Assembly (NCBI RefSeq): GCF_000004075.3
Contig: NC_026658.2
Location: 2,046,001-2,110,000, forward strand
Source of the DNA: Cucumis sativus
Lineage: Eukaryota; Streptophyta; Magnoliopsida; Cucurbitales; Cucurbitaceae
Direction of reading: 5' to 3'
Length of the DNA stretch: 64,000 nt
Part shown: in pieces, positions 42,901-64,000 of the stretch
Numbering within the stretch: the stretch's first letter is position 1
Layout: each line of letters starts with the position of its first letter
Notes under the pieces: generated by a model
Database searches by the model: none
The model's input: only the letters and a program-made list of their open reading frames with translations
Told to the model about the DNA's origin: nothing
Made by a program: the position numbers and the translations under genes

Positions 42901-43412
42901 GCATTTAAATCTCTTTTCTTTCTTTTTTTTCTTCTACCCTTTTCCTTCTTCTTCTCTTCCTCTGTTCTTCCTCTTCTCTTACAACAATTCCCATGATTCC
43001 CTTTTTTCTAAATCGGATGGTGGTTTCGTGCAATGAGCTATGGAGGTTTAATGGGTAATTTTGTTGCTTCTGAATGTGAATTGGGTTCGCTTTGTTTTTG
43101 CTTTTATCTGAATATCTTCTTGAATCTGAGGATATGTGGTGTGGGTGTGTACTTCTCGAGAGGACAGGAACTAATTGCTTGCTGAATGAGTGAATGTCTG
43201 GGGATTTGAAAGAGAATGAAGTAAATTTTACTGGTTCCTTCTTGGATGTTGGATTTTGAATTTAGTGCTGGAGGAATTTCTTTAATCTCTTATGTCTTGC
43301 TGAACTTTGGTTGCTTCTGGTTTTGTTAAATTGTTATGTTTTTTCTGTTTGTTCATGGAACATTTGAAGAGGAGATTGTTGTTCATTCTTTGAATGATTG
43401 GTTTGGTCTGCA
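42901..43412 (+). promoter_or_regulatory. ACR4 leader with CT-rich tract and several upstream ORFs
   Basis: A pyrimidine-rich tract at 42908-42985 probably marks the transcription start region. The following leader holds upstream ORFs: 43033-43185 (50 codons), 43185-43208 (7 codons, overlapping the previous stop), 43194-43259 (21 codons) and 43355-43393 (12 codons). The ATG at 43394 opens a 100-codon frame that overlaps the ACR4 start out of frame. If transcribed without splicing, these would restrain ACR4 translation. Confidence 0.5.
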
Positions 43413-46178
43413 ATGGGGTTATTCTTGTTGGTGGATTTGGTTGTTTCGTTCTTGAAGAAGATGTGTGGTTGGAGGGGTGGATTGTTTGTGGAATTGGTTG
43501 TTTTTGCAGATATGTGTTTGTTGGTGTCAGGTTTAGGTTCAATGTCTCCTCTTGCTGTTTCTTATGGGGAGAAAGGGCCTGTTTTTTGTGGTTTGAAGTC
43601 AGATGGGTCTCATCTTGTGAACTGTTTTGGTTCAAATTCAGCCATAACTTATGGAACCCCTTCTCATTTCCCATTCATTGGTCTCACTGCTGGTGATGGG
43701 TTTGTTTGTGGGCTTCTTTTGGATTCCAACCAACCTTATTGTTGGGGGAGCAGTGGCTATGTTCAAATGGGTGTTCCTCAGCCCATGATCAAAGGAGCTC
43801 AATACCTGGAAATTAGTGCTGGTGATTATCATCTGTGTGGACTTCGAACGCCTCTCACTGGACGGCGTAGGAACATGTCATTTGTCGATTGTTGGGGTTA
43901 CAACATGACCAGAACCTTTGCTTTTGATGGTCCTATTGAATCGATCTCAGCGGGGTCTGAGTTCAACTGTGGGCTGTTTTCTCTTAATAGAACTGTTTTC
44001 TGTTGGGGTGATGAGACGAGCAGCCGTGTAATCAGTTTGATACCTAAAGATATGAGGTTTCAAAAGATAGCGTCTGGTGGATATCATGTTTGTGGAATTT
44101 TAGAGGGTGCAAATTCAAGAGCGTTTTGTTGGGGAAGGAGCTTAGACATTGAAGAAGAGATCTCAGTTGCATATTCAGGTGAAGGAAATGTTGAATTGGT
44201 TCCAGTTGATCCATTAGCCTCTGTTGTTGGGGGAAAATTCCATGCTTGTGGAATAAAGAGCTCAGACCGTGGTGTGATTTGTTGGGGTTTTACGGTTAAA
44301 CCGAGTACTCCACCACCGGATGGGATTAAAGTTTACGACATTGCTGCTGGAGATTACTTCACCTGTGGAATTCTAGCTGAAAAATCTCTCTTGCCTGTTT
44401 GCTGGGGTCTTGGATATCCTACTTCCCTGCCTTTAGCCGTCTCACCTGGAATCTGTAAAGCAACTCCTTGTCCTCCTGGTTTCTACGAAATTAGCCAAGA
44501 CAAAGCTCGGTGTAAGTCACCAAATTTTCATGTGTGTATGCCCTGCAGTTCTGCTTGCCCTCCTGATATGTACCTAAAAGTTGAGTGCTCCTTAAAATCT
44601 GATAGGCAGTGTGAATATAATTGTTCAACTTGCTTTTCAAGTGAATGCCTCTCAAACTGCTCGTCCATGCTTTCAAATGGTATGATGGGAAGGAAAAATG
44701 GGAAATATTGGCCTGTGCAGCAGCTTCCAGTTCTTGTAGCTGAGATTGCTTTTGCTGTTTTTTTGGTAGCTATTGTGTCTTTGACTGCAATCTTATACGT
44801 CCGATACAAGTTACGGAATTGCCATTGCTCAGGAAAGGAGTTGAAGTCTAAGAAAAATAAAGGGACTGCCTCTTCCTTCCAGAAGGAAAGCTATAAAATA
44901 CGTCCTGACTTGGATGAGCTGAAAATAAGGAGGGCTCAGATGTTCACCTATGAAGAACTCGAGAGAGCGACATGTGGGTTTAAGGAAGAGTCTATTGTGG
45001 GAAAGGGAAGTTTCTCTTGTGTTTTTCGAGGGGTTTTAAAGGACGGGACGGTTGTAGCAGTAAAACGAGCTATAATGTCTCCCAACATGCAGAAGAATTC
45101 AAAGGAGTTCCACACTGAACTAGACTTACTATCAAGATTAAACCATGCCCATTTGCTTAATCTGCTTGGTTATTGTGAAGAAGGTGGAGAGAGGCTTCTT
45201 GTTTATGAGTTTATGGCTCATGGTTCCTTGCATCAGCACCTCCATGGCAAGAACACAGCCTTAAAAGAACAATTGGATTGGATAAGAAGGGTCACAATTG
45301 CAGTCCAAGCAGCCAGGGGAATTGAATACTTGCATGGCTATGCTTGTCCTCCAGTCATTCATCGAGATATTAAGTCGTCAAACATTCTCATCGACGAAGA
45401 GCACAATGCTCGAGTCGCTGATTTTGGCTTGTCGTTGTTGGGACCAACTGATAGTAGCTCTCCATTAGCTGAGCTACCAGCGGGGACTCTTGGCTATCTT
45501 GATCCTGAATACTATAGACTTCATTACCTTACCACCAAGTCGGATGTGTATAGCTTTGGTGTTTTACTGCTAGAAATTCTCAGTGGTAGAAAAGCCATTG
45601 ATATGCAATATGAAGAAGGGAACATAGTTGAATGGGCAGTGCCTTTGATAAGATCTGGAGATATCTCTGCAATTTTAGATCCGATATTAAAACCGCCTTC
45701 TGATGCAGAGGCCTTGAAGAGGATTGCAAATGTAGCCTGTAAATGTGTGAGAATGAGAGCGAAGGAGAGGCCATCAATGGACAAAGTGACAACTGCTTTG
45801 GAGCGTGCTCTTGCCCAATTAATGGGAAGCCCATGTAACGAACAACCGATCTTACCAACCGAGGTGGTTTTGGGAAGCAGCAGACTACACAAAAAGTCTT
45901 CTCAAAGATCATCCAACCGTTCGGTCTCTGAAACAGATATAGCAGAAGCTGAAGATCAAAGGTTCGAGTTCAGAGCTCCATCGTGGATTACATTCCCGAG
46001 TGTGACATCGTCCCAGAGGAGGAAATCCTCAGTGTCAGAAGCAGATGTTGATGGAAAGAATTTGGAAGGAAAAAATGTAGGGAATTGTGGAGGTGTTGGG
46101 GATGGATTGAAGAGTTTAGAGGAAGAGATTGGACCTGCTTCCCCTCAAGAAAAGTTGTTCTTGGAGCACAATTTTTAA
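43413..46178 (+). CDS. ACR4: CRINKLY4-family receptor kinase ACR4
   Basis: A single-exon receptor serine/threonine kinase, 921 residues from ATG 43413. An in-frame ATG at 43461 (MCGWRGGLFVELVVF) would give a more classical signal peptide. The ectodomain carries the CRINKLY4 repeats, each with a C-G...CWG pattern (VFCGLKS, PYCWGSSG, VDCWGYN, VFCWGDE, AFCWGRS, VICWGF, PVCWGLG). A TNFR-like Cys-rich region follows (CPPGFYEI, CMPCSSACPPDMYL, CSTCFSSEC). The membrane span is near residues 438-461. The kinase has a P-loop GKGSFSCVFRG (about 529), VAVKRA, HRDIKSSN (about 650), DFGLS (about 670) and the APE-region GTLGYLDPEYY. The Ser-rich tail ends in RRKSSVSEAD and EEIGPASPQEKLFLEHNF, typical of ACR4. 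In Arabidopsis ACR4 acts in epidermal and root-cap cell-layer specification downstream of CLE peptides. It appears intact and catalytically competent. Confidence 0.96.
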   Translation: MGLFLLVDLVVSFLKKMCGWRGGLFVELVVFADMCLLVSGLGSMSPLAVSYGEKGPVFCGLKSDGSHLVNCFGSNSAITYGTPSHFPFIGLTAGDGFVCGLLLDSNQPYCWGSSGYVQMGVPQPMIKGAQYLEISAGDYHLCGLRTPLTGRRRNMSFVDCWGYNMTRTFAFDGPIESISAGSEFNCGLFSLNRTVFCWGDETSSRVISLIPKDMRFQKIASGGYHVCGILEGANSRAFCWGRSLDIEEEISVAYSGEGNVELVPVDPLASVVGGKFHACGIKSSDRGVICWGFTVKPSTPPPDGIKVYDIAAGDYFTCGILAEKSLLPVCWGLGYPTSLPLAVSPGICKATPCPPGFYEISQDKARCKSPNFHVCMPCSSACPPDMYLKVECSLKSDRQCEYNCSTCFSSECLSNCSSMLSNGMMGRKNGKYWPVQQLPVLVAEIAFAVFLVAIVSLTAILYVRYKLRNCHCSGKELKSKKNKGTASSFQKESYKIRPDLDELKIRRAQMFTYEELERATCGFKEESIVGKGSFSCVFRGVLKDGTVVAVKRAIMSPNMQKNSKEFHTELDLLSRLNHAHLLNLLGYCEEGGERLLVYEFMAHGSLHQHLHGKNTALKEQLDWIRRVTIAVQAARGIEYLHGYACPPVIHRDIKSSNILIDEEHNARVADFGLSLLGPTDSSSPLAELPAGTLGYLDPEYYRLHYLTTKSDVYSFGVLLLEILSGRKAIDMQYEEGNIVEWAVPLIRSGDISAILDPILKPPSDAEALKRIANVACKCVRMRAKERPSMDKVTTALERALAQLMGSPCNEQPILPTEVVLGSSRLHKKSSQRSSNRSVSETDIAEAEDQRFEFRAPSWITFPSVTSSQRRKSSVSEADVDGKNLEGKNVGNCGGVGDGLKSLEEEIGPASPQEKLFLEHNF

Positions 46179-47637: not shown

Positions 47638-50600
47638 TTAGGCACAAGGGCAAAGCCTCTTCGTATGTGGGTGTGAGCCATCACAAGAAACCATTGATTG
47701 TGCGCTACTATATAAGCATGCTCCTGGATTCTGATATTAGTACATACTAAAAATAAGAACTAATGTATTTCCTTTATAATAATACATTGACATTCAAAAG
47801 AAACTCAGTAAAACATACAATCAACAAGAAAATAAAGCATATGCAACAGAACATCATTAAAATAGTATCTTCAACCTTATAGAGAGGAAACATAGAGTGG
47901 TGTTCTCGATGTAATAAGAGAAGCATGAGTGAGTAATAATAGTGAGGTAGTAAGTATGTGTATGTTCCATCATCTTCTTGAAGGGGTAAACAAAACAAAG
48001 GTGGTCAATAGGATGAACAAAAGTCCACTCTTTGAAGGGGTAGAGAAGTTGATGACCATGTGAAGAAATCTCGGGTAAGTTTGGTTCCAATTCCTTGCAA
48101 TGAAGGAAGAACAAAATCAGATGGTTTGGGCGTGAAATGACACCGAGAGTTCTGTTTTGATTGGTAAAGGAGAACGGAAATTTTCCTTTTAATTTGACGG
48201 CTGTTGAGCTGGTTGTTTCTTTGATATACTCTTGAACTTGGCCTAGCTACACCTTCTTTAAATGTTTTATTCTTTGCAGTGGAAATCTTAGAGTTCACAT
48301 TTGTGGTTTTCTTTTTCCTTTGACTAAACAAGGACTATGCCAATGGGAATCCCTTACAGAAGAGATATATATCTAGATTTATCCAAAAAAAAGGAGGATG
48401 CTTAGGTTCTATCCTTCTAAATGGGGTTGTCCACAAAGTATCTTTGATGTTTTGAACTTTTGAGCTGCTTGCGGAAATTCTTCTTCCTTGAATGCATGAA
48501 AAAGCCTCACGACCCAATTAGAATGTTAGGTCTCACATTATCTCCTCTTCCTTTTTTCTCCCAAAATTTCAGTATCACAGTATGATATTTTCACTCTCCT
48601 GTCTCATTTCTACTCCTTTCATTCTTCTTGACTATTCTTCTCATAATCTTCCAACCCAATGCCAACTATCAGCGTCTGAGTGTATTTAGAGGAAAATTGA
48701 AAATGAAATAGAATGTCAATTAGCAATAATAATCCCCTCGAAGTGATTTACTTTTTCTAAATTTCCTTTATTGGTGATCTTGGACTAATAGTGATAATCA
48801 CTTTTGATGATCAATACAAAAAAAAGCAGGACAGCATACCAGTTCTTTAGGAGCATCATAAGCAACTTCAGCAGGTTGATCGGTTCCAACACTTGCTAAG
48901 CAACCTCCTTTGCAGCTCAAGTATTTTTGCATACTATCCCAGAATAAACATGAATAAAATATAAGAAAGTACATAATTCATAAGTCAGACCAAAACACTG
49001 AAAAGAAGCAGAGTAACTAATGATTGGGAGTAAAACTATCTATTCACTTGTTTATTAAAAAACACTTGTATCAAGAAAAAACTTTCTGTGGCTTCATTAA
49101 GAAATAGGAGGAAAAAAAAAACAAACAGAAACTCACTCACATGTCACAGTGATTTAGGACCAAAATCTTGTTAGGGACACATGATTGTCCATTTGACTTG
49201 CAAACTGAATCACACGACTCTCCTTGTCTACCATAGATGCAGTTCAGAAGAGTAAGAAAGATGTCAAACAATGTTTAAAATAAACAAACTTGGGATAACT
49301 ACCCAGTGAGAGATACCTTCCAATAATGACATTAATGCCACTGAGTCTGAACTCTAGTTGTGTGCTGTTGTCTCCTATGAGGTTCATTTTAAGAATAATA
49401 AATTGTTTAAGATGAGAAATAATAACCAAATGAAAATTTTAAAGCTAAGAGAATGCAATTACACTGGCTAAGCACTTTTGCTTTATCTTGCAGCCACAAA
49501 CTATATTTCTTCAATATCACATGGGCTACAGTGTACCTTTTACACTATAATCCTACCTCTTATAAGTTTGTTCTTACTACTTATAAACATCAGGGAATGC
49601 AATTACAGTGGCTACAAAAGCCTACAATAAATTAAATCTAAAAGCAAAAGTGAGAAAGACAGCTACTATATTAACAACAATAAAGTGATGGAAATGATGC
49701 TAACAAATGGAAAAAATATACCTAGAAAATTGTTTAAAAAAATGTTACACATGGAATTGACCTCTGTGCAATATTTCTAAAAACCACGATCCCTATAGGC
49801 TATATGATTTGGGTTCAGCTATTAAAGTTGGTAACTATTCCACGGTAGTTCACAACAGCCAAGAAGAGTTCTGATCTAATTCAACATCATGACTAACCTG
49901 AAGAATATGATGGCAGAGAAAAGCAATGATGGAAAGCACTGTGATAAGCATTTTCGTGTACCTGAAAATTTCAAAATTCTATCGAATATCTGAACAGCGA
50001 GAATAAAGCATATGATGATAAATTATACATTCATCATAGTTTACAAGGACTCTAAATCAAAATGAAAACATTGTGTAAATCATTCAAAAGGATATTCCTA
50101 AATGGAGTGGCACTTAGTATCCATTAATGTATATTCAACCTTGCCTGACTTGTTGGAGCATCATCAACAATGACACAAATGACATTTAAACGTATATTCT
50201 ACAAATAGAAAAACTTCTTCCATTTTATAAACATTACATAATAAGTAGAAAAAAAATTACATACGTTTAGCCGGGTTTATATGAAGGTAAGTAAATACAC
50301 TTTTTTGTAAAAATCATATAAAATTACTAATAAGAAACAACCAGTGACACAAATAAAATGCAATAGTACTGAACTCATTTTAAACATGAAAAAAATATCA
50401 ACGCAGGATACTTACAACACTCTCAGAATTGTGACGACACCTCCCAACACAGAAATCAAAGACGCTGGCATATGTCCCTGCAAGATTTAACGTAGTTTTA
50501 AATGTTTAATCTGATATCAACAGTTTCTTTGGGGTAACTTGTGGGAAAAAATGTTTTTGGACAGACTCAAATTTTCTTCAAGTGGCTTGGGAAGAATTAA

Positions 50601-52532
50601 TAATTTAAAAAATGTAGTTTTTTAATGTGATTTTAGATGGAAAAAAATCTAATATAAATTTTAAAAATAAAAGTATTAACAAATAAAAGTACCTAAAAAA
50701 ATTGTAGTTAAAAAGTCATTTTAGGTGGGATAATCCATCTTTCAAAAGTTTCTTTAAAAAAAAGAAATGGAATAAGCTTAAATACAACCTACACATCATT
50801 CTTACTCATAATGGAAGCTTGTCTATAGGTACTAGTCATTAGTAATTACCTGCAGTGGCTGGCTTGGCAATTTTAATTTTTAATATTTGCTCCCTTTTGG
50901 TCTGCATGCAGCATCCAGAAAGGCGTCAATTTTTAGATTCCAGCTCAAATTCATAGGGAAAAAGAAAACTAAAAAGAAGAATGAAGCATTATAAGAATCA
51001 AGAAGAGACCCATTCATACCCTTGAAGGATTCTGGCAGCATGAAACACAATATTCATATGAATTGCAACATTGTAAAACAAGATTGCAGCCACTGCAAAG
51101 TGTAAACAGAAAATAAACAATAACCTCGAAAGAGCCCTTACACTCATCATGAGCCATTGAAGATTTATTTTGGAAAGAAAAAACTCACTGACAAGGAAAT
51201 TTCTCCCCTTTTCCATGACAACAACGAGACAGTGGATCAACAGACAAAGCATCACACACATAGCCTGGAAATGAGAGCACAATAATTATACTGAATGAAA
51301 AAAGTATGCATTAGGCTTTGAGAGAATTTCTATTTCGAACAAAATATGAACGTAACAAGTTATAGGACTTTCCAGAATATTTAATATTTTATAGAATACT
51401 ACAGAGATAACGATACAATACAATAATAAGTAGAAAATATAAGTATTGTCATAGCCAGCAGAGGTCATAGTTGAAAATTAAAATCACAGATGGAATATCT
51501 AAATTGAAGTACAAGAAATCAATAATGCTTATTACCGTGGAGAGTGACCAATAAGAGTATAGCAAATAGGTAGGCAATGCAACATGATTGACTACCCAAG
51601 ATTAACATTTTACTACAAACAATCCCTTTGTAGAAACCTAGCATACAATAGTGAAAGTGGCCAAGAAGCAATTCCACATACACCTTGCAAACCGACACTA
51701 CCGAAGAAGGTGATCCAGGTTTTCCCCTACCTTTGACAAAGGACGCAACAGAAAGAGCTCAATAACGAAGGCATCGTTCTTACAAGGCCTATCCAACATG
51801 TTCACAAGACTAAGCAACACTTGCCAAGGAAAGAACTTAACTTTCTTTGGAATCTTAATAAGCCATAAAACATCAAGATTGTAAATCCTAATTAAGTCGC
51901 ACAAAAAGTAAATAACAACGACGACAACAACAATGATAACAACAATAAATCAAACTAAACAAAAGCTAACTTTTTCACTTGCCCATTTTCCTAATAAAAA
52001 ACACCAACTCGAAAAATAAGTAAAAGAAAGACAAATTCAGGAACCGTCAATGTCCAATAAAATGAAGTAACACCAAGAATTAATGAAAGAAATACTTACC
52101 ATTATCATCAGACAACAAATATCTTCCCTGAACAGTGCTCCTACATGAGCTATTTACTGCTAAGCCAATATTAGTCCTTCAAAAAAGAAAAAATATACAT
52201 ATAACTCAGCTATGATTGGGCAGGAAGAAAATGGTAAACAACAAAGAGGATATGAATACAGAGGGCAGGCATCATATATAACATATAGTTTGAAAAGAAA
52301 ATCTTTTGAACAAGAATCCAAAATTGAGGAATCTGAAGAGCTGCATTCTTCCGTTTGGGTACAGAATAGTATGAAAGGCCAAAAACCCAGAAAGAATAAG
52401 GGTGGTAGAGTGAAAATGGGAAGAATTAGAAAGTGAAAGTGGAAAATTTCACCTGATGGATGAAATTGTTGAAGGAAAGAGGAAGAGAAATTGGAAGAAT
52501 AAAAAAGTTAAATGGAAGCGATGAATCCACAT
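47638..52532 (-). CDS. SPRING-like (SREBP regulating gene protein family) with extra Cys-rich C-terminal domain
   Basis: Eleven exons: 52453-52532, 52100-52176, 51189-51264, 51020-51092, 50850-50901, 50416-50477, 49898-49961, 49317-49374, 49141-49227, 48840-48933 and 47638-47730. They join in frame to 271 residues. Residues 7-24 are a hydrophobic signal peptide or anchor. Residues 38-162 match animal SPRING (C12orf49, DUF2054) motif by motif: CRSTVQGRYLLSDDNGYVCD, CHGCN, QCCNSYEYCVSCC (C86, C87, C93, C96, C97), FDFCVGRCRHNSESVVHENA and FHHCFSLP. Residues 182-271 form a second Cys-rich unit with SCDSVCKSNGQSCVPNK, NPGACLY and RLCPCA. Animal SPRING is a Golgi protein required for site-1 protease activity and SREBP processing. 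Plants have S1P, which processes bZIP17/28, but are not known to use SREBP. A secretory-pathway role with S1P is inference. Intron 1 uses a GAAG acceptor, although a CAG lies 20 bp further downstream. Confidence 0.9.
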
Positions 52533-59210: not shown

Positions 59211-62200
59211 TTATATTCTTTGAGGAAGTGGAGCCTTGATAACTTGAAGAATCTGCACAACTTCAGCCATGGAAGGCCTACTTGAAGGAATTTGAGAAGT
59301 GCATACCAAAGCCAATTTGAGGATAGGCACAACTTCATCTTCTGAATATTGAGTCATACTTGGATCAACACAATCCAACACATTACCTCTCTCAAGCAAA
59401 TACCTCACATGGTCTGTCAATATAACCACATTGTCTTCTCCATACTCCACCGGCCTTCGTCCCGTCACGATCTCTAGAATCATCACCCCAAAACCGTGTA
59501 CGTCGCATTTCTCATTCACCCTTATGCTCTGGCATGCTAGTTCCGGTGCGACGTATCCCAATGCACTTTGGAATCTGTTGTTCATGACGTGCTTGTCAAG
59601 CTTTGTTAGGAGTCTTGCGAGCCCGTAATCAGAGATCTTTGGGTTGAAGTTTTCATCGAGGAGGATGTTGGTTGGCTTTAGATTGTAGTGAACGATTGGC
59701 GGGCGGAATGAGTGGTGTAAATGTGCTAGTCCTTTGGCTGTCCCAAGCACAATCTTGAACCTGTTATCCCAAGACAATGGTGGAGCTGAAGGAAGTCTTC
59801 CATGGAGTTGAGTTTGAAGACTTCCATTGTTAGCATACTCCATTACCAATAGCTGAGTTTGAACAGTCCAATAATAACCCTTTAAGCTGATCAAATTAGG
59901 GTGTTTAACCTTCCCCAAAACTCGGATTTCCCGGTCAAAATCTTCCGGATTTTGAATAATGTCTGATTTCACAAGCTTCTTCATAGCTACATCTCCTCCA
60001 TCTCCCAATGAAACCTTATAAACCGTTCCGAAAACTCCACCACCAATCTCAGAGGCCTTATTCAGCAAGGCTTCATGGTTACTAACCCAATTCAACGATG
60101 CCTTTGAGTTTGAATCAAACAAAATAAGCTTACCAGCAGTGACTGTCCCTGATTTCGAAGAGCTCGAACAGCTTTCCAACGCATTGTCGACAAACGCAAG
60201 CGATCTCCTCCGAGCAGAGACATTGAGCAAGGTGATTACAAGCACCCCAAGGGCAATCAAAGTGGCAGCAGAGATGGCAACAATGGCAGAGACACTGAAG
60301 AAAACATGATGTGAGGAATGATTAGATAATTGTGAAGGTCTGTTTCTGCTGCTTTGGCCACCCATTTGATTGGGATAGGCATTGGGATCAAGAACAAGGG
60401 GCTTAGGGACATTCATTTTGCAAGGTCCTTTAAGTAAAGGGGAGCAAAGGCCTAGGTTTCCTTGCAAAGCACTTTGATCTAAGCTTGGAAAAATGCCACC
60501 AACAGGAAGTCTGCCTGTTAACATATTGTATGAAATATTAACAGCTAGTAGGTTTTGAAGAATTCCAAGCTCTTGAGGTATTTCTCCACTTAGTTCATTT
60601 GATTCAAGTCTTAGAATCTCTAACTTGCTTAGTTTGGAGATTGACTTGGGAATTTCTCCACTTAGATTGTTGTGGGATAAACTCCTGCCATACAAAAGTA
60701 AACTCAACAGGTTATCACCACATTTAATATGATTTTTTAAATAGAAACCTATCAGAATAATATTTAATCTAAGGATCTCCAAAGTTCAAGGTCTAATTAT
60801 ACACATTTTATAGTTTCTAAACCTATTAAACATGAATTTAAGTCTAGTTAATTTAACTCAAACAAATAAAGAAAAATTATCAAAATTAACAAATATCTAC
60901 TAGCTTTTGTATTTGTGGGTTTTTTTTTCTTGTTAGGAAAGGTAAATAGTTTGTTTTTTTTTTTTAATTATTCTTAAAAAAACTCATATAGATAAGGAAT
61001 GAACCAAATGAAGGAAAAATACATATAATGATTGGAAATTTTCTGGTTTTATTTTGAATCTATCTTTAATTTATAATGGTATTAAATTGAGGTTAGCTTT
61101 CCGATAATTGACATAAAACTAGATTTAGGATAAAAAACCAAAATTCATTAAAGAAAAGCACAAATTCCACGCCCAAAACAAATTCTCAAAAAAAAAAAAA
61201 TCCCTTTTGACAATTTTTTGAAGGCAAGATCAAAATTTTAATTTAATGTGAACTATGTTCATTTTAAAAAGAAAAAAAAGAAGAATAAAAGTTATGTTTA
61301 GGGTTCAATATTATAAAATTAAAAATCACCATCTCATTCTTAGTTAAGTAAAAAGAAAAGAAACTTTTGGAAAAATGTAAACATTGAGAAGGAAAGGACC
61401 ACAATGGCATAATACTTACAGCAAGTAAAGTGAGAGACAATTCCCAATCTCATCAGGAATTGGACCAACCAGAGAGTTTCCATCAAGTTGAAGAATCTTC
61501 AAACTCCCAGAATCACACAATTCTCCAGGAATTGAACCATACAAATCACTGCTTCTAATATCTAACACATTCAGATTCTCAAACAACCCCATTTCTGGTG
61601 GAATCTTTGCCTTAAACTCATTCCATGACAGATTCAAGTACCTCAAATTTCTATACAACCCCATTTCTGCTGGAAAGTTCCCTTCTAATCTGTTACTTGA
61701 CAAGTCCATTCTTGTCAGCTTCTCATATAGCCTACTTGATCCCACTGGAATTGAACCAATCAGCTCATTCTTAGACAAATCCATCTCCTCTAACCCCAGT
61801 TCAAACAACCCTTCTGGCACCCTTCCATTCAAACTGTTTCCTTCAAGCTTGATCACAGATAGCTCAGAACATTCCATCAATGTCTCTGGGATGTTCCCAG
61901 TCAGCTTATTGTTTGAAAAACTCATGTATTTCACCGATCTTAATCCCCCCATTGTTAAGGGAAGACTACCAGTGAAGCCATTGCTTGAGAAATCCATGTA
62001 TTCTAACCTTCCCATGTTTCCAATCCACTGTGGGAGCTCATCTGAAAAACTGTTGAATCCTATATTGAGGAAGGTTAAGGAGGTTAAGAGCCTCATTGAG
62101 TTCGGTAGCGGCCCGGTGAGACGGTTTCCACTGACATCCAATGTAGCTAAGTGGACGCATAATCCCAAGTCTGAAGGTAATGGCCCTGAGAATTGGTTGT

Positions 62201-62969
62201 TCTGCAACTTGAGCTCTTTTAGATTATGAATAGCTGAAATCCCTTGTGGTAAAACACCAGAGAAATCATTTTTTGAGAGATCTAATGTCCTCAGCCTTGC
62301 TAAAGACCAAATCCCAGGAGCAAAATTTAAGCTACCGGAGAATTGATTGGTTGAAAGATTGAGAGTGTTTAAATATAAACACCTTGTGGGCAATGTGTTG
62401 GGAACAGGGCCTTGAAGCATATTAGAAGCAAGAGAAAGATAATGAAGAGAAGAACAATTAACAAACATTTCATCAGGAAGTGGCCCAGATAAGAGATTAT
62501 CAGAAAAATCAAGAAATCTAATGGAAGACATAGAGATAAGAGAAACAGGAATCCGCCCAGATAAACTATTGCCGCTGAAATTAACTCTGTCGAGACTAGG
62601 AGGAAGAACAAGCTGAGGACTAAGATTCCCAGTGAAATTATTCCCAGAGAGAGACAATACCTTGAGATGCTGTAATTTCTCAAGCCCTCTTCCGATTCTC
62701 CCAGATAATCCCAACCCATCAATGGAAACCTCAGAAACTCTGCCATTAATGGGGTTGCATTTAATGAACTTCCAAGAACAAGGGGAGTCATCGTCTTCAC
62801 TCCAGGAGGAAAGAACGGAAGAAGGGTCTTGAAGGTCGGATTTGAAAACGATTAAGCCGAGGATATCGTCGTTGAGTTGAGGATAAAGTTCATTGAAGGC
62901 AATGGCATTTTGAAGAAGAGTGGAGATGGATCCCAAAAGGGAAAGAGCGAAGAAACAGAGGAAAGACAT
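59211..62969 (-). CDS. LRR receptor-like kinase (At3g28040-like) with atypical catalytic loop
   Basis: Two exons, 61420-62969 and 59211-60684, join within a Leu codon to give 1007 residues. After a signal peptide (about residues 1-24) comes an LRR N-cap (LNDDILGLIVFKSDLQDP...DDDSPCSWKF), then about 20 leucine-rich repeats of the plant type (LSGxIPxx) in which the intron falls. A GNLGLCSPLL...GPC end cap and a membrane span near residues 646-672 (VFFSVSAIVAISAATLIALG) follow. The kinase has GGGVFGTVY (about 736) and VAMKKL. Its catalytic loop is VHYNLKPTN (about 849) instead of HRD, and its DFG motif is DYGL. The nearest relative I recall is Arabidopsis At3g28040, which also has a non-HRD loop. 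Weak or absent phosphotransfer is expected. The C-terminus ends APLPQRI. The ligand is unknown. Confidence 0.93.
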
Positions 62970-64000
62970 TGGAGAAGAATGAAGTTCAGTTAATGGGTGT
63001 TTTTTCAGTTGAAGGAGATGGAAAGTTACATGGAAAAGGAGAGAGGAAACAGAAATTGGAGGAGAAAGAATGAAGAATGAAGATTGTAGAATGAAGAAGA
63101 AAGAGAGAAATGATATATGAAATTATGAATGGCCATTTTTGGATCATTGTCGCTTACTTCATCTTCTCTTATGTTTTCTTGCTTTCTCTCTTACTTCGCT
63201 TTCTGTGCCTTTCTATTTTTAAATTCACCTTCTTCTTATATCATTTTCTATTTCTTTATTTATTTTTAAAACATTTCTCAAATTTATCCATCTTTTTCAA
63301 TTTCACCCCGTCTTTTAAAATAAAAAAAATATCAAATTCTATCTATGATAAATACCGATTCCCTTATAACTTCTATCAACCCTACTACTTTATCTACTCT
63401 ACTTAAAAAAAAATGCAAACATGTAACTAGAGAAAATAGGTTTCACTCCCAAGAATAAAAGCAAAATAGTTATTCGAGATAGAAACTAAATATCAATAAC
63501 ATAGTAATCAAATAGTAATGGTAATAATAGACCTTCTAAATGGAAATAATATTAGTAAAGTTATAATTAATATATATTTTTTAAAATTGAGCTAAAAATT
63601 CCAAATTGTTATATGGAAATGTGATTAAATCTTAATTAAATTGTCATGTGACTTTAATCTTTCAAACTATTTAGTCACAAGACACATTTATAATATATAG
63701 GCTAAAGTGAATAGGTAGGCCTCTTGTAGCCTCTCAATGCTTTCATAAGTTTAGTTTTTCCCCCTCACTTTTTCCTATTCTTTTTTTTTATATCTTCATT
63801 TAACAAAACAACAAAATTCACTATTTTCTCTTAGATTTTCTTTTACTCATTCCAAAAACTACCATAAAAGTACGATAGCAATTGTTGTCGTTGTATCTTA
63901 AGCTTTTAAACTTTATTGAACTCTCAAATTTATCAAAATTTTAAACTTAGATTCTCAAACATGTATAATTGTATAAATTTGAAGATTCAATTTGTCATTT
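62970..64000. other. LRR kinase leader/promoter and AT-rich end of window
   Basis: The first ~140 bp upstream of the ATG are purine-rich on the plus strand (GAAGAAT/GGAGA runs) and probably form the leader. The rest is AT-rich with no recognisable gene. The window ends without an exon crossing the boundary that I can see. Confidence 0.45.

Follow-up and report, generated by a model that had tools for sequence, protein, structure and literature searches.

A cucumber gene predicted to encode a SPRING-family protein with a GnT-V-like C-terminal module

In humans, SPRING binds S1P, displaces its pro-domain and licenses the cleavage of external substrates (PMC11231238). The interface of the two proteins is known from cryo-EM: mutation of R95, R174 and V180 in SPRING or of P317, N328 and W556 in S1P, tested singly or in pairs across both partners, lowers SPRING cleavage and binding, and R174 constitutes the centre of the interface (PMC11231238). 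Another residue of S1P, N515, is a glycan site required for S1P maturation, and SPRING appears to contact the outer sugars of its glycan (PMC11231238). In plants, the S1P homolog AtSBT6.1 is reported to be located mainly in the Golgi, to have a cleavage preference nearly that of human S1P and to process the CLEL6 precursor in the same compartment (excerpt of PMC7162652). S1P was also claimed, in the initial annotation of the DNA described here, to cleave the plant factors bZIP17 and bZIP28. This agrees with the literature for bZIP17, whereas the cleavage of Arabidopsis bZIP28 is reported to be S2P-dependent and S1P-independent, although earlier data on S1P-site mutations and target genes had pointed to S1P (excerpt of PMC9237531).

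The second system of relevance is the glycosyltransferase GnT-V. Its catalytic residues, Glu297 and Glu526, are located in two Rossmann domains, and its C-terminal domain (G628-L741) contains five of the eight disulfides (excerpt of PMC6107550). Genes of the corresponding Pfam family, PF15024, are reported in some dicots, ferns and algae; the 2017 survey describes the other GnT-V domain as missing in one clade, suggests a loss of GnT-V activity and, in the available part of its text, makes no mention of a SPRING domain (excerpt of PMC5225481). No description of a plant SPRING was found in the literature searched (titles of papers on SPRING, C12orf49, DUF2054 or PF10218, preprints and most subscription papers being outside the scope), and the word 'plant' is absent from the SPRING papers that were word-searched. 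Within the same scope, no earlier description was found of an architecture joining SPRING to the C-terminal domain of GnT-V.

The window, i.e., the whole analysed stretch of 64,000 nucleotides from Cucumis sativus (NC_026658.2, positions 2,046,001 to 2,110,000), contains a minus-strand gene (52532..47638) whose 11 exons (Table 1) yield, once spliced, a 271-codon open reading frame followed by a stop, with GT-AG boundaries in 10 of 10 introns. The span given initially, 49898-52532, holds exons 1-7 (484 of the 816 coding bases, residues 1-161) and stops short of the remainder of the gene, which continues to 47638; the second, GnT-V-like module encoded by exons 8-11 was missing from that account. 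Besides 24 cysteines in total, the protein carries N-glycosylation sequons at N35 and N164. Its N-terminus is hydrophobic, 19-residue Kyte-Doolittle windows exceeding 1.2 inside residues 1-28, which would fit either a signal peptide or an anchor of short length; for a SPRING-family member, a glycosylated Golgi protein with one N-terminal membrane anchor would be expected. As SREBP signalling in mammals is rescued by the ectodomain of SPRING on its own (PMC12419022), a signal-peptide form of the plant protein would not be disqualifying. Judging from its sequence, the gene product is best explained as a secretory-pathway protein that is rich in disulfides and consists of two modules, a SPRING (CREST) domain at the N-terminus and a homolog of the cysteine-rich C-terminal part of the Golgi enzyme GnT-V (MGAT5).

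Table 1. Exons of the SPRING-like gene (positions in the window), with their content and the evidence used
Feature	Position	Strand	Content	Evidence
Exon 1	52453..52532	-	ATG, hydrophobic N-terminus	Open frame, GT donor, Kyte-Doolittle windows
Exon 2	52100..52176	-	Start of SPRING (CREST-like) domain, CRSTVQG	Splice model, Pfam SPRING1
Exon 3	51189..51264	-	GYVC ... CC ... C	Splice model, alignment to 8uw8_B
Exon 4	51020..51092	-	CC(N)SYEYCVSCC core	Splice model, alignments
Exon 5	50850..50901	-	Variable stretch opposite human helical insert 139-164	Splice model, alignment
Exon 6	50416..50477	-	CVGRCRHNSESV, carries R134 and V140 (human R174 and V180)	Splice model, residue mapping
Exon 7	49898..49961	-	VHENAYHS...C, end of SPRING domain (C153)	Splice model, Pfam SPRING1
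Exon 8	49317..49374	-	Linker and start of GnT-V-like module, sequon N164	Splice model, Pfam search
Exon 9	49141..49227	-	GnT-V C-terminal module, GESCDSVC...C	Splice model, PF15024 model positions 467-557
Exon 10	48840..48933	-	GnT-V C-terminal module, middle	Splice model, alignment to 6yjr
Exon 11	47638..47730	-	End of GnT-V C-terminal module, SCDGSHPHTKRLCPCA and stop	Splice model, alignment to 6yjr

The initial annotation had proposed a plant homolog of SPRING, to be checked by an HMM search against Pfam DUF2054/SPRING, and the proposal is borne out. The 271-residue protein matches Pfam SPRING1 (PF10218) with residues 35-154 at model positions 3-131 of 131, scoring 122.7 bits against a curated cut-off of 22 (E = 1.4e-35), and its best match in the PDB is the human SPRING chain of the complex with S1P (8uw8_B; residues 34-154, E = 2.9e-17). 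The pairwise alignment to human SPRING contains 42 identities over 115 residues, and the cysteines of the domain fall into shared columns almost throughout (14/14 in the plant protein, 14/15 in the human one). All the key words claimed for the family are present: CRSTVQG (38-44), GYVC (53-56), CCNSYEYCVSCC (86-97) and CRHNSESVVHENAY (133-146). When the cysteines were kept in place and the remaining residues permuted, none of 2000 shuffles reached the real score of 65.2 bits (best shuffle: 36.7), so the match is not an effect of cysteine composition, and a chance cysteine match is ruled out. Membership in the PF10218 family is strongly supported, as well as a sequence can support it.

The presence of S1P in plants, also part of the initial account, was confirmed in the same genome (226.6 Mb, 88 contigs). 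The MBTPS1_3rd profile has one match there (191.6 bits), and a hand-assembled stretch of 638 residues aligns with human S1P (8uwc_A) at E = 1.2e-268, with 370 of 616 aligned residues identical (60%) and the catalytic D218, H249, N338 and S414 (human S1P numbering) all conserved. The stretch encoded by the first exon matches MBTP1_N, the family of the S1P N-terminal domain (E = 1.3e-17), and, more weakly, residues 59-124 of 8uwc_A, which belong to the A-domain (E = 3.2e-4). The pro-domain displaced by human SPRING thus has a plant counterpart.

Residues of the SPRING-S1P interface can be followed in both plant proteins, with human numbering fitted to the PDB chains from the named residues (offset 14 for SPRING and 6 for S1P; all letters agree). 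In the SPRING-like protein, human R174 and V180 correspond to the conserved R134 and V140, whereas R95 is lost, its position being occupied by A58. Plant S1P retains P317, N328 and W556 (3/3 tested contacts), N515 together with its sequon, and the stacking Y561; at 60% identity, all three contacts would be kept by chance in about 1 in 5 cases, and in about 1 in 8 with N515 included. The kept residues are consistent with a conserved SPRING-S1P interface; as proof of S1P binding, conservation of the contacts was rejected as too weak. Within SPRING, identity to the human protein is higher in the S1P-contacting parts (37/89) than in the insert that is not resolved in the structure (4/22, p = 0.05), the counts excluding human residues opposite gaps (5 and 4, respectively) and residues 72-75; with cysteines left out, the difference no longer holds (24/75 vs 4/22, p = 0.29).

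On balance, the plant protein probably works like animal SPRING, meeting S1P in the Golgi, displacing its pro-domain and licensing the cleavage of external substrates. From the human mechanism we infer that plant SPRING would bind plant S1P (AtSBT6.1 class) in the Golgi and occupy the site of the inhibitory pro-domain, which would thereby be displaced; S1P freed of its pro-domain would then be able to cleave external substrates. SREBP and SCAP are not known from plants, so these substrates would be those of plant S1P, for example bZIP17 and the CLEL6 precursor. As the cleavage of bZIP28 is reported to be S1P-independent, bZIP28 would be a poor readout of plant SPRING; bZIP17 or CLEL6 would be better.

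Alternatively, the SPRING fold might serve another task in plants, e.g., that of a luminal disulfide-rich adaptor or chaperone carrying the GnT-V-like module, and S1P activation might have been gained in animals together with SREBP/SCAP. We regard this as possible, yet rather unlikely, with evidence on both sides. The loss of R95 and the presence of a module that human SPRING does not have would accord with a different task, but the central contact R174 is conserved together with V180, and plant S1P retains both the matching residues and the N-terminal domain displaced by SPRING in human. The mammalian data are divided as well: in liver and cell models, SPRING is reported to be specific for SREBP, its loss altering SREBP output and leaving ATF6 and CREB3L3 signalling unaffected, and it is reported to bind Scap, whereas a wider role is left possible by one study implicating it in lysosome biogenesis in HeLa cells and another of mbtps1-like defects in zebrafish (PMC12419022 and studies cited therein).

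The C-terminal module is similar to only a small part of GnT-V. Residues 173-270 match Glyco_transf_18 (PF15024) exclusively at model positions 467-557 of 557, a stretch of 91 positions at its C-terminal end. The score is 26.1 bits when the whole protein is searched, slightly below the cut-off of 28, and 32 bits (E = 6.8e-8) for the C-terminal 109 residues (163-271) alone. Searched against the PDB at E <= 10, the protein retrieved seven sequences: five of GnT-V (E from 4e-5 to 5.1e-5), one of SPRING, and RLP24 (E = 0.82), which is unrelated. A DUF1623 match from the Pfam search is at chance level (E = 0.16). None of the 1991 cysteine-fixed shuffles of the module that were scored (2000 made) reaches its 31.0 bits, the best one having 13.7. 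Aligned with human GnT-V, the module has 31 of 92 residues identical and 8 common cysteine columns; 8 shared columns are also given by MAFFT, with one human cysteine opposite plant C217 instead of C221. Because the match covers positions 520-611 of the 626-residue chain 5zib, the construct of which ends at L741, the module is placed in the C-terminal domain of GnT-V.

With a PF15024 score above the cut-off for the C-terminal 109 residues, GnT-V crystal structures matched at E about 4e-5 and PF15024 genes already reported in some dicots, ferns and algae (excerpt of PMC5225481), the protein could be taken for a relic or variant of the GT18 glycosyltransferase GnT-V; this is very improbable, as the match lies outside the two Rossmann domains with the catalytic Glu297 and Glu526 (excerpt of PMC6107550), is restricted to one end of the model and drops just below the cut-off when the whole protein is scored, the remainder of which is SPRING. 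A complete GT18 / GT-B glycosyltransferase is ruled out, since only the C-terminal part of GnT-V is present. In a SPRING-like S1P activator, the module might perhaps contribute to retention, or to the docking of glycans or partners. A bolder and decidedly improbable version of this idea is that plant SPRING would be a general, glycan-aware activator of S1P: its GnT-V-derived module would dock on the S1P N-glycan equivalent to that of N515, or on glycosylated substrates, S1P would be unlocked only after glycan processing in the Golgi, and animals would have narrowed a more ancient eukaryotic protease switch to SREBP-only use.

Searching the cucumber genome with the protein yields 14 exon-wise matches, 11 in this gene and 3 at 2003639-2004097, in a second locus of the contig at a distance of about 90 kb. 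The second locus is an 834-base alignment with 94.7% DNA identity that comprises exons 3-5 with their introns and directly abuts 33 bases derived from window positions 48475-48507. Differences from the gene amount to 4/201 aligned bases in exons (with 2 gap columns) and 27/620 in introns (with 11 gap columns), and no convincing match to the other exons was found in the 19 kb around it. This locus represents a gene fragment of recent origin rather than a second gene. Although such a copy indicates that pieces of the gene have been duplicated, a decayed gene or pseudogene without function has the slightest probability of all the readings, given the complete 271-codon frame, GT-AG boundaries at all 10 introns and the 14 of 14 SPRING-domain cysteines in human cysteine columns.

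Profile searches of the same genome gave narrower results. With PF10218, this gene was the only match and the partial copy was missed; with PF15024, no match was obtained in the genome, though the module is present in four exons. Exon-wise family searches thus overlook split domains, and the lack of a match to the INSIG profile in this genome is not evidence of absence. The scans for relatives covered viral contigs and prokaryote genomes, and say nothing on other eukaryotes. Among viral contigs, 2 pattern matches were obtained with the whole protein, 18 with the SPRING domain and 20 with the GnT-V-like module, each of the two domains being used as a two-row alignment; among prokaryote genomes, scanned with the SPRING alignment only, there were 44. 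None of these was confirmed by tblastn.

The gene suggests that SPRING may have arisen before the cholesterol pathway in which it acts in animals. A clear SPRING homolog in a lineage not known to have SREBP, encoded in a genome with an S1P that retains its N-terminal domain and the tested contacts, argues that the pairing of S1P with SPRING may predate the use of SREBP, and this becomes testable in Arabidopsis. For studies of plant S1P, concerned with stress bZIPs and the maturation of CLEL peptides, it provides a specific candidate cofactor. It also offers a possible reason why some plant genes have been listed as incomplete relatives of GnT-V: extrapolating from this one case, the plant PF15024 genes of the 2017 survey (excerpt of PMC5225481) might be of the same two-module type as the cucumber gene.

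Compared with animal SPRING (C12ORF49, POST1; PF10218; 8UW8), the cucumber protein shares the cysteine-rich domain over its whole length, 14 common cysteine columns, the key words, two of the three tested S1P-contact residues and a hydrophobic N-terminus. Unlike animal SPRING, it has a replaced R95 equivalent, a shortened helical insert, an added GnT-V-like module at the C-terminus, and a hydrophobic segment separated from the domain by only a short linker, which lacks an S1P-type site: the sole R-x-[LVIT]-[LK] word, RYLL at 45, lies within the SPRING domain, and the looser R-x-x-L word is found in RFHL at residue 5. In comparison with GnT-V / MGAT5 (GT18; PF15024; 5ZIB, 6YJR), each of the 8 cysteines in the aligned human stretch has a counterpart in the plant module, and at the edge of the match both sequences terminate with CPC; however, the plant protein has neither the Rossmann domains with the catalytic glutamates nor the N-terminal domain of GnT-V, and its module has two cysteines in excess of those in the aligned human stretch. 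The plant PF15024 genes described previously belong to the same Pfam family as the C-terminal module and, like the cucumber gene, are reported without the other GnT-V domain (excerpt of PMC5225481).

Outside the window, about 90 kb off, there is a recent partial duplicate of the SPRING-like gene, which covers exons 3-5 with introns and is 94.7% identical to the gene over an 834-base alignment. The duplicated exons are directly abutted by a 33-base piece derived from another stretch of the window. One end of the duplicate lies where a local direct repeat (~2.7 kb, 85% identical) has its edge. The duplicate looks like a piece of the gene that was copied and carries an internal deletion.

The Pfam scan of the open frames in the window covered 8 of the 15 long frames. 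The plus-strand receptor kinase, whose TNFR match falls slightly under the Pfam cut-off, has the domain build of the CRINKLY4/ACR4 family. The two minus-strand frames, read unspliced, probably constitute a single leucine-rich-repeat receptor kinase gene.

Locations of the features discussed
Feature	Location	Strand	Source
Receptor kinase open frame (RCC1 repeats, TNFR-like cysteine region)	window 43398-46178	+	Pfam
Kinase and leucine-rich-repeat open frames	window 59211-60785 and 61416-63122	-	Pfam
Partial SPRING-like duplicate	G000:C4:2003600-2004428 (cucumber contig carrying the window) = L013:6601-7429 (stretch read around the duplicate)		
33-base piece, origin	window 48475-48507		
Exon 2, encoding RYLL	window 52100-52176		

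The C-module of the plant protein contains 10 cysteines, compared with 8 in the aligned stretch of human GnT-V. The additional residues are Cys208 and, depending on the aligner, either Cys217 or Cys221 (exons 9-10); these two may pair with each other in a separate disulfide. The plant protein has a single match to R-x-[LVIT]-[LK], namely RYLL at residues 45-48. In human SPRING, the S1P site (RNLL49) is located in the linker, whereas the plant RYLL aligns within the SPRING domain.
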